NCBI RefSeq assembly: GCF_010730955.1
Contig: NZ_AP022577.1
Location: 1,860,001-1,924,000 of the forward strand
Length of the DNA: 64,000 nt
Direction of reading: 5' to 3'
Source: Mycolicibacterium aubagnense
GTDB lineage: Bacteria; Actinomycetota; Actinomycetes; Mycobacteriales; Mycobacteriaceae
This document shows, one piece after another, positions 15,988 to 20,335 of this stretch. The number at the start of each line of letters is the position of its first letter. Within the stretch, counting starts at the first letter, position 1. A program made the translations under genes and the position numbers. Under the pieces are notes generated by a model. The model worked only from the letters and a program-made list of their open reading frames with translations, searched no databases and was not told where the DNA came from.

Positions 15988-16596
15988 ATGACCCGCACCA
16001 CAGGCAAACCATCCCTGCGCGAAGCCAAACGCCTGGAGACCCGGCAGCGCGTGCTCGATGCCGCGATCACCGAGTTCAAGCGCGCCGGCATGGCAGATGC
16101 CGACGTCGGAGCCATCATCAGCGCCGCCGGTGTCGCACACGGCACGTTCTACTTCCACTTCCCCACAAAGGAACACGTGCTGTTCGAACTCGAGCGCCAG
16201 GCCGAGGAATCGGCCGGCCGCGAGCTCGCCAAGTTCCTGCAGCAGCCCCACACGCTCGAAGCGGCGCTGACCGAAGTGGTCCGAGTCATCGTGGCCGTGG
16301 AGCAACGGCTCGGTCGGCTGCTGTTCAAAGACGTTCTGGCACTGCATTTTTCATCGAACCGCCCGCTGGACGACGAATGGACCGATCACCGGGTCATCGT
16401 GCTGGTGGTCCAGGAGATCGAACGAGCGCGCCAGGCCGGCGAAGCGGATGCGGACGTCGACCCCTTCCACAGCGCGGTGTACTTCCTGCTCAGTCTCTAT
16501 GCCCTGCTCACCACGAGCCGCGGCGCGGACCAGATCCGCACCGCCCTGCTGGACAACTTCGTCAACACCGCGCTGCGAGGTATCGCAGCCCGATAA
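15988..16596 (+). CDS. TetR-family regulator heading the NorD/NorQ-like operon
   Basis: A 202-aa TetR protein. The HTH region is LETRQRVLDAAITEFKRAGM then VGAIISAAGVAHGTFYFHFPTKEHVLFEL. The C-terminal ligand domain is unassigned. It is the first gene of a run of seven closely packed genes on the plus strand (14 bp to the next start), and a 16-bp palindrome lies 37 bp upstream, so it probably autoregulates the whole operon. Confidence 0.92.
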   Translation: MTRTTGKPSLREAKRLETRQRVLDAAITEFKRAGMADADVGAIISAAGVAHGTFYFHFPTKEHVLFELERQAEESAGRELAKFLQQPHTLEAALTEVVRVIVAVEQRLGRLLFKDVLALHFSSNRPLDDEWTDHRVIVLVVQEIERARQAGEADADVDPFHSAVYFLLSLYALLTTSRGADQIRTALLDNFVNTALRGIAAR

Positions 16597-16610
16597 CCGG
16601 AGGAGACACC

Positions 16611-16709
16611 ATGTGGCAAGAGATAGCGCGTCTCGCCATCGCATGGGGCGCCATGGCCGCCCTCATCGCGTTCTGGTACTGGATGTTCTCGAACATCGGC
16701 ACCTTCTGA
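16611..16709 (+). CDS. 32-aa single-span membrane peptide
   Basis: ATG at 16611 behind GGAGGAGACACC opens a 32-residue frame ending TGA at 16709. The peptide is almost one transmembrane helix: MWQEIARLAIAWG then AALIAFWYWMF and a short SNIGTF tail. The excellent ribosome-binding site, position between TetR and the VWA gene (14 and 17 bp gaps) and aromatic-rich helix support a real gene. Small subunits of this type occur in respiratory and other membrane enzyme complexes; the partner here would be the 229-aa polytopic protein. No family recognised. Confidence 0.75.
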   Translation: MWQEIARLAIAWGAMAALIAFWYWMFSNIGTF

Positions 16710-16726
16710 GCCGGCCGGTCCGCACA

Positions 16727-19090: not shown

Positions 19091-19219
19091 ATGAACGAGC
19101 AAGATCGCAAACGCAAACGGGCACTGATCGTGTTCCAGCTGTTCGCCTACGGCTGGCTGCTGGCGATGTTCCTGATCCAGCTGCACATGTCGATCGTCCG
19201 GGGCTGGTGGTCGCTGTGA
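19091..19219 (+). CDS. 42-aa single-span membrane peptide
   Basis: ATG at 19091, ten bases after AAAAGGAG, encodes 42 residues: a highly basic start (MNEQDRKRKR), one transmembrane helix (ALIVFQLFAYGWLLAMFLIQL) with a following HMSIVRGWWSL. Its stop TGA overlaps the GTG start of the polytopic protein, implying coupled synthesis. By charge the N-terminus should be cytoplasmic. It is the second such peptide in this operon. No family recognised. Confidence 0.75.
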   Translation: MNEQDRKRKRALIVFQLFAYGWLLAMFLIQLHMSIVRGWWSL

Positions 19220-19905
19220 GTGCGACCACGGTGCCGACGGTCAGCTTTGACCAGCACCACGACGAATCCCGGTTGGCGCAACGACAGGCGGACCGCTGGC
19301 TGATCACCGGCACCCTGTTGATGGGGTCGATGTTCATCGGCTTCATCGGGCTGCCGTTCTTCCTGCGGGGCGTCTGGCTGCAGCGGCGGGCGCAGAAGGC
19401 CGGCTTGTCGGTGCGGCCGATCATCGTGACGCTCATCGGCTATCTGGTGATTCTCGATGCCGCGCTCAACAGCATCGGCTGGTCGCTGGATCTACTGGCC
19501 AACCACACCTTGCTGAACCGCACCATCATCACGGCATGGGGCAACATGTTCGACGCCGGGTACTTCTGGCACTACAACGAATTGTGGATCGGCGGCGCGG
19601 GCGCACCGGGCGAAAAGGCCTGGGAGGTGGCGCTGATCCTGACGGTGTTCACCATGCGCATTGCCGCCGGCATCGCGTTCCTGCAGATGAAGCGGTGGGG
19701 CCACCAGTGGCTCATCATCACCTGCTGGTTCGGCATCGTCATCTGGATCGGCTACACGTTCAACATGACGATGTTCGCCGACATCCGTTATGCCGGAGTG
19801 GTTTTCCCGGTCGTCGGCTGGTGGCTGTACGACATCTTCTACATCACGCCATTCCTGGCCATCCCGTATCTGCACACCGTCAATCGCGAAATCTTCAGCG
19901 ACTAA
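19216..19905 (+). CDS. 229-aa polytopic membrane protein, candidate catalytic subunit
   Basis: An integral membrane protein with about five or six helices (roughly residues 30-50, 68-90, 138-157, 165-185, 194-217, with a further hydrophobic stretch near 104-125). Polar residues that could bind a metal cluster in FDAGYFWHYNELW (D113, H119, E122), plus H163, D189 and H220. GTG 19216 overlaps the 42-aa peptide stop (GTGA). I do not recognise the family. Comparisons considered are the copper monooxygenase C subunit (PmoC/AmoC), NorE and AveC-like proteins; none matches convincingly by eye. Ten bases separate it from the next gene. Confidence 0.75.
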   Translation: MSATTVPTVSFDQHHDESRLAQRQADRWLITGTLLMGSMFIGFIGLPFFLRGVWLQRRAQKAGLSVRPIIVTLIGYLVILDAALNSIGWSLDLLANHTLLNRTIITAWGNMFDAGYFWHYNELWIGGAGAPGEKAWEVALILTVFTMRIAAGIAFLQMKRWGHQWLIITCWFGIVIWIGYTFNMTMFADIRYAGVVFPVVGWWLYDIFYITPFLAIPYLHTVNREIFSD

Positions 19906-19915
19906 AGGACATCGA

Positions 19916-20335
19916 ATGAGCATCACCGACACCGAGTCACCCGAGGCGGACGACAACCTGCCGGTGGGCACCACACCGGTTTACGCCAACATGCACAAGT
20001 GGCTCAAGCGCGGCCTTTTCGTGTGTCTGTTCGGCCTCGTCATCGAAGGGTCGTTCACCATGCCGGCACTGGCCGTCTGGTACGGCTGGCCGACACTGTC
20101 GTTCAGAGAGATCTGCAGCGAGCTGATGAAAGTGCGCTACTCCGACGACACGCTGGAATGCAAATTTCCCTACGACTTTTCGGGTGCACCGTTCGGCGGA
20201 CCGCCGGAAGCCGCCGGCCAGCACACCGCCAAGGACACCTGGGGCGTGCAGCCGGTGCCGCACTACCACCGCCTGGGCTTCCGGGAATTGGTGGCGATCC
20301 ACGACGAGCGGTTGGCCCGCGCCGGCGGCCACTGA
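19916..20335 (+). CDS. 139-aa single-span membrane protein of the NorD/NorQ-like operon
   Basis: The N-terminal 30 residues are polar (MSITDTESPEADDN), followed by one transmembrane helix (about 31-55, FVCLFGLVIEGSFTMPALAV) and an 85-residue domain with two Cys (REICSEL, TLECKFPYDF) and a His/Gly/Pro-rich portion (GGPPEAAGQHTAKDTW, VPHYHRLGF, VAIHDERLA). The His and Cys content could serve metal or redox functions. ATG 19916 follows AAAGGAC. Last gene of the operon. No family recognised. Confidence 0.75.
   Translation: MSITDTESPEADDNLPVGTTPVYANMHKWLKRGLFVCLFGLVIEGSFTMPALAVWYGWPTLSFREICSELMKVRYSDDTLECKFPYDFSGAPFGGPPEAAGQHTAKDTWGVQPVPHYHRLGFRELVAIHDERLARAGGH

Follow-up and report, generated by a model that had tools for sequence, protein, structure and literature searches.

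CbbQ/CbbO, the Rubisco activase, is an AAA+/VWA pair that serves a dedicated client and repairs it without inserting metal. In Paracoccus, insertion of FeB needs NorQ/NorD, and NorQ is proposed to turn the VWA domain of NorD and to stretch a linker so that nitric oxide reductase opens for iron (PMC13036017); the discussion of that paper likens CbbQ/CbbO to NorQD. A NorQ/NorD pair is also encoded in a seven-gene operon (positions 15,988 to 20,335) of a 64,000-nucleotide stretch of the Mycolicibacterium aubagnense genome (contig NZ_AP022577.1, positions 1,860,001 to 1,924,000, forward strand; hereafter the window), beside a 229-residue polytopic membrane protein, M229, and the smaller membrane proteins p32, p42 and M139. 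As in Paracoccus, a CbbQ_C-type AAA+ protein with Walker motifs and a partner with elements resembling a metal-ion-dependent adhesion site (MIDAS) share one operon with membrane proteins; unlike in Paracoccus, the operon is without norB and norC, and the adjacent membrane proteins belong to an unrelated family. Like CbbQ/CbbO, this AAA+/VWA pair would have a dedicated client, but the presumed client is a membrane protein, unlike Rubisco. NorD has 507 residues here, compared with 69 kDa for the Paracoccus protein (PMC13036017, in part).

Another related arrangement is found in mycobacteria, where NorQ/NorD pairs adjoin genes of the AveC_like family (PF17198). In those loci, too, the chaperone pair adjoins a polytopic protein of the membrane, in some cases a tandem of two, and there are P450, short-chain dehydrogenase/reductase (SDR) or Rieske-type neighbours (partly by eye). 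They differ in that their NorQ proteins form another clade, that one long protein stands in place of four small ones, and that the kinship of M229 to AveC_like does not rise above shuffled controls. No paper tying NorQ/NorD to AveC, to EXPERA proteins or to an operon of this kind was recognised among titles and abstract openings of the open-licence literature. Term look-ups met neither AveC nor EXPERA in PMC12419801 and PMC7159879, and neither NorQ nor CbbQ in PMC7159879.

Computation shows the gene content, the conservation of every part of the operon and a conserved inverted repeat, and also that NorQ and M229 are linked and descend together. The presence of this conserved set of genes across mycobacteria and related bacteria suggests that the membrane enzyme served by the chaperone is of a kind so far undescribed. 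The initial annotation of the locus had read it as a NorQ/NorD pair with a client that is possibly a membrane metalloenzyme; a client complex is very probable on the evidence below, and the proposed metal site is not supported.

Gene content and conservation of the operon

All seven packed genes of that annotation are confirmed on the plus strand, and the observation is stronger than had been stated. The first gene encodes a TetR-family protein of 202 residues, the presumed local regulator (15988..16596; Pfam TetR_N, 43.6 bits), and the second encodes p32, a 32-residue single-span membrane peptide (16611..16709). The NorD-like VWA protein (16727..18250, GTG start) scores 20.5 bits for VWA, below the Pfam cut-off of 23.8, but contains elements fitting the MIDAS pattern DxSxS-T-D (DGSSS at 329, GGYTR at 400 and VIGDG at 428, with T and D assigned by eye). 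The NorQ-like MoxR AAA+ ATPase (18247..19053, 268 residues) exceeds the Pfam cut-offs for AAA_5 (124.4 bits, cut-off 22) and CbbQ_C (76.7 bits, cut-off 20.6), with a Walker A motif GPTGCGKT at 35 and a Walker B motif LDE at 100. It is followed by p42, a 42-residue single-span membrane peptide (19091..19219), by M229 (19216..19905, GTG start), the presumed client and catalytic subunit, and by M139, a 139-residue protein with a single span and a Cys-bearing soluble tail (19916..20335). M139 has three cysteines, C37 in the membrane span and C67 and C82 in the soluble part, not the two first reported. Neither M229 nor M139 has a Pfam or NCBIfam match at E up to 1. The stated absence of norB and norC is borne out among the operon proteins by Pfam and NCBIfam, and by eye in the other open reading frames of the window.

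A scan of named genomes with an M229 profile, limited to the best 80 of 333 matching stretches, gave 78 loci spanning Mycobacterium, Mycolicibacterium, Nocardia, Rhodococcus and Aldersonia; these come from related species and are therefore not independent samples. On the plus strand, matches to p32, p42 and M139 occur in 76 of the 78 each, to NorD in 75, to NorQ in 74 and to TetR in 75. All six non-TetR genes are present in 73 loci and their order is kept in 72, so that the operon arrangement is far beyond chance. The nearest of these named loci, in Mycolicibacterium llatzerense and three Mycolicibacterium strains, have M229 proteins 98-99% identical to that of the host, whose 6.32 Mb genome contains a single M229 match. 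M229 is present in 47 of 148 relatives' genomes and, when the order is sampled evenly, in 26 of 298 genomes, every one of them in the host's own family.

The two peptides are coding, because silent exceed replacement codon changes in comparisons with loci L032-L036. For p32 the silent/replacement counts are 8/0, 9/0, 6/0 and 7/0 against L032-L035 and 7/4 against L036, with 7/9 against L037; for p42 they are 10/0, 6/1, 4/1 and 7/0 against L032-L035 and 11/2 against L036.

Beyond the family, a genome of the same phylum and another class (G488) has M229 (42% identity), NorD (35%) and NorQ (53%) in consecutive order; upstream of this row lie, by eye, a homologue of p32 and a helix like that of M139. 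A wider pull of distant M229 sequences among 249 genomes of that class returned only G488 and one discarded match. The latter, a weak match in G734 (E 8.9e-4), resembles a cobalt-transport-type membrane protein amid transporter genes (by eye).

Linkage and descent of NorQ with its membrane partners

Of 61 genomes of relatives, 29 carry CbbQ_C genes, 65 in total. With distances taken from the CbbQ_C match, M229 is 178-265 bp away for 21 of these genes and an AveC_like gene is 668-3184 bp away for 41, and none of the 65 adjoins both. The other three comprise one in another family of the order with an unclear partner, one fragment with a stop and one gene beside COX3/COX4_pro, neighbours that were scanned for outside the 62 paired genes. 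In the reverse view, NorQ lies within 5 kb of 42 of 49 M229 rows and of 47 of 86 AveC_like rows, an 87th row below the family cut-off having been left out. The linkage of M229 with NorQ/NorD, for which the initial annotation proposed to look, is thus present.

Since the loci were picked for M229 or AveC_like, a tree of NorQ tests descent and not proximity. Among 100 NorQ proteins, the 76 linked to M229 form one clade with none of the 20 AveC-linked proteins inside it (local support 0.997). Of the remainder, those of L246, L278 and L279 are near neither partner, and the NorQ of L071, within 4 kb of both M229 and AveC_like, groups with the AveC-linked proteins. A maximum-likelihood tree, built from 14 of the 75 other M229-linked NorQ proteins, all the rest and the G488 protein, gives the M229 side, G488 included, an ultrafast bootstrap of 100. 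The linkage, this phylogeny by partner and the existence of chaperone-free sets (see below) agree with the earlier designation of M229 as the likely client. The operon thereby gives the AAA+/VWA machine a specific client candidate, with matched controls in the loci that have the client genes and no adjacent chaperone.

In L071 (Mycobacterium asiaticum) the M229 operon has a second NorD/NorQ pair downstream of it (13476-15808), encoded on the other strand, and it is the NorQ of this pair that falls among the AveC-linked proteins. In L278 (6711-8672, genome G030) a NorQ-type gene has COX3 and COX4_pro genes after it, an arrangement like that of norE/norF. The host genome encodes two extra NorQ/NorD pairs, at G000:C1:1287269-1290212 (L243) and 1362293-1365113 (L244), both beside AveC_like, of which there are two tandem genes in L244; oxidoreductase-type genes surround both pairs (by eye). 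AveC_like is expanded in single genomes, with 14 matches in G018 and 7 in G424.

NorQ peptides of a sponge symbiont have been taken as a sign of nitric oxide reduction (PMC6081418, in part). Such use of NorQ as a marker can mislead, because 62 of the 65 NorQ-type genes in the mycobacterial genomes examined adjoin other membrane proteins.

The prevalence of AveC_like beside NorQ (41 of the 65 genes) also favours a possible, if doubtful, reading compatible with the one preferred here, in which M229 and M139, perhaps with p42, are a split AveC_like protein and both kinds are NorQ/NorD clients. In hhalign, the joined p42, M229 and M139 are colinear with AveC_like over 289 columns, the tail of M139 falls on the Cys tail of AveC, and the helix 3 motif D-x3-N of M229 is aligned to Q-D-x3-N of AveC. 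However, the score of M229 alone was reached by 6 of 60 and 14 of 60 shuffles in two settings and the joined score by 5 of 50, and Pfam AveC_like matches none of the 27 M229 members of profile A3. If real, this kinship would unify both NorQ partners. A bolder and still less probable extension would make the NorQ/NorD pairs of actinobacteria activases dedicated to a whole class of EXPERA-like membrane enzymes, comprising AveC_like spirocyclases and the M229 complex as their split version; cyclases and isomerases of the membrane, among them enzymes that give polyketide drugs their shape, would then generally depend on remodelling by AAA+/VWA machines, perhaps with an unrecognised cofactor. According to PMC13303154, structural information on AveC is lacking owing to difficulties with its heterologous expression. 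The operon ties the NorQ/NorD machine to AveC_like proteins, and if such clients need NorQ/NorD, this would offer a route to working enzymes.

Putative subunits, likely fold and candidate chemistry of M229

Four of the 78 loci have no NorQ match. Two of them, L054 and L101, are truncated at contig ends. The other two, L044 (Nocardia aurea) and L049 (N. bovistercoris), retain p32, p42, M229 and M139 and show no NorQ/NorD in the 16.7 kb examined; both of these strains have a second, complete locus (L077 and L083). In a distant M229 subfamily (L110, L301) an 82-residue two-helix protein looks like p32 over its first half and like the M139 helix over the rest (by eye), the latter likeness also appearing at E 3e-4. 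No NorQ/NorD was found in the stretches examined around L110 and L301; the L110 genome has NorQ at another locus, together with an AveC_like gene. A 34-residue peptide near L110 may correspond to p42 (by eye). Because of the apparent fusion and of the Nocardia sets without NorQ/NorD, p32, M139 and M229 probably act together. Thus, p32, p42 and M139 look like subunits of an M229 complex, in keeping with the accessory role first proposed for the two peptides. L301 (1-19732) belongs to the linear 864 kb plasmid pJCM12687 of Mycobacterium branderi, and the annotated neighbours of its distant M229 gene are an acyl-CoA ligase, an acyl-CoA dehydrogenase, a thiolase, a mycofactocin-coupled SDR, an aldehyde dehydrogenase, a GMC and a Rieske protein.

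An AlphaFold2 model of M229 built from 98 sequences (ma2281ba8b53b; pLDDT 88, pTM 0.85) has its best VIA-align rows with the sterol isomerase EBP and the sigma-2 receptor (TMEM97). It supersedes a first model from 27 sequences (pLDDT 69.6), for which no significant fold match was obtained. That the six-helix fold of M229 is most like that of EXPERA sterol isomerases is supported but not proven. Unlike EXPERA proteins, M229 has no match to Pfam EBP (PF05241), nor have the 27 members of profile A3 (E up to 10, where HMMER filters drop most weak matches), and it adds an N-terminal helix, small partner proteins and the chaperone pair. The EBP profile gave zero matches in 149 genomes of the phylum; of 14 control genomes, one gave a match, below the cut-off. 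A sequence search of the PDB with profile A3 returned nothing at E up to 10.

Residues were compared across 63 near and 35 distant M229 sequences and G488. All of them share D26, R67, N85, D92, D113, E133, K134, R148 and R191. Nearly invariant are D81, which one distant sequence replaces by E, and N121, which differs in one near sequence. This pattern does not sustain the metal site that the initial annotation had placed at D113, H119, E122, H163 and D189, of which only D113 is universal. H119, E122 and H163 vary, and G488 has D, A and L in their places. The distant sequences mostly have D, H or N at position 119 and S, Q or T at position 122, and all 35 have L at position 163, where 8 of the 63 near sequences have Q. 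D189 is retained by G488, whereas the distant set does not conserve it. Along with Q164, N183 and a VNRE-F-D tail, it is common to the near family and G488 and mostly lost in the distant set, two loci of which were checked for NorQ/NorD; these residues could mark a chaperone contact or a cofactor.

These losses weigh against M229 being a membrane metalloenzyme, a monooxygenase or reductase whose metal is inserted by NorQ/NorD as in nitric oxide reductase. Further counter-arguments are that the EXPERA-like fold houses metal-free acid-base enzymes, and that, given the metal-free repair by CbbQ/CbbO, a NorQ/NorD-type pair need not imply metal. A metalloenzyme would fit the many conserved acids of M229, the retention of N183 and D189 in the near family and G488, the P450 and SDR neighbours, and the GMC, aldehyde dehydrogenase and Rieske genes of the one plasmid, which together fit an oxygenase pathway; it would also fit the NorQ/NorD requirement for FeB insertion in Paracoccus (PMC13036017, in part). 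On balance it is unlikely, though it merits consideration.

Much less probable still is a divergent copper membrane monooxygenase of the PmoC type. M229 is similar in size and helix number, and by eye its strings W-G-H and D-x4-H are reminiscent of motifs in PmoC. However, hhalign against PmoC/AmoC relatives gave a probability of 0.35% in one run and 0.2-5.4% in four settings, H163 and H97 are lost in the distant set, and AmoC is absent among the families matched by the 27 profile-A3 members (E up to 10). Nor was there any match to COX3/NorE for M229 or these members, so that the profile check against described enzymes suggested at the outset gave no clear match among the copper membrane monooxygenase C subunits and COX3/NorE, and none above shuffles for AveC_like. 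Of 296 genomes sampled from the phylum, three (G384, G399 and G412; L142-L144), all of one family, have AmoC/PmoC-family genes (about 151 bits).

Several features favour acid-base chemistry on a hydrophobic substrate: the probable fold, acids and amides that are invariant, histidines that vary, and neighbouring SDR and P450 genes. M229 would form the core of a four-part membrane complex with M139, p32 and p42, and would most likely carry out an isomerisation, cyclisation or dehydration through N85, D92, D113 and E133, and nearly invariant D81 and N121, on a hydrophobic substrate within the membrane that is alicyclic, steroid-like or isoprenoid. By analogy with the Paracoccus pair, the NorQ ring would use ATP to drive NorD, the VWA adaptor, which would grip the M229 complex and remodel it to its active form; metal insertion, inhibitor removal and subunit assembly are possible modes.

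Operator-like repeats and neighbouring genes

Two operator-like inverted repeats, TGACTTAAGTCA (site 1, 15937..15948) and TGACTCCAGTCA (site 2, 15950..15961), lie in the gap before TetR. They are the only two occurrences of the pattern TGACTNNAGTCA in the genome, where the reversed pattern occurs once. Genome G017 has two TGACTNNAGTCA sites, about 0.1 kb and 2.2 kb from M229 (reversed control 0), and G020 has three, two flanking M229 and one elsewhere (reversed control 2). The 78 loci together contain 106 sites, of which 103 lie at most 350 bp upstream of TetR, M229 or p32, in 62 loci. For comparison, 59 permuted inverted repeats have a mean of 0.7 sites in these 1.22 Mb, with a maximum of 16. 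Such sites stand opposite divergent SDR genes (21) and diaminopentanoate-dehydrogenase-like genes (15) as well.

TetR probably reads these repeats and, from its two TGACTNNAGTCA sites, would switch on the operon in response to the substrate or one of its derivatives. The proposal as a whole, a four-part membrane complex with its own maturation machine, acid-base chemistry and TetR control, stands at slightly under an even chance. The enzyme genes that face the same repeat, the invariant acids and amides and the occurrence of more than one M229 match in 52 of the 78 loci argue, though not decisively, against a NorQ/NorD-assembled transporter, receptor or EXPERA-type lipid or sterol sensor, for which the sigma-2 receptor would be the precedent; such a role is improbable.

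Upstream of the repeats, the minus strand of the window encodes a flavin adenine dinucleotide (FAD)-dependent aromatic-ring hydroxylase (13694-15229), whose best NCBIfam match is rifampin monooxygenase (344 bits, cut-off 800). Its gene adjoins that of a TetR protein with an MftR-type C-terminal domain (15213-15866, minus strand).
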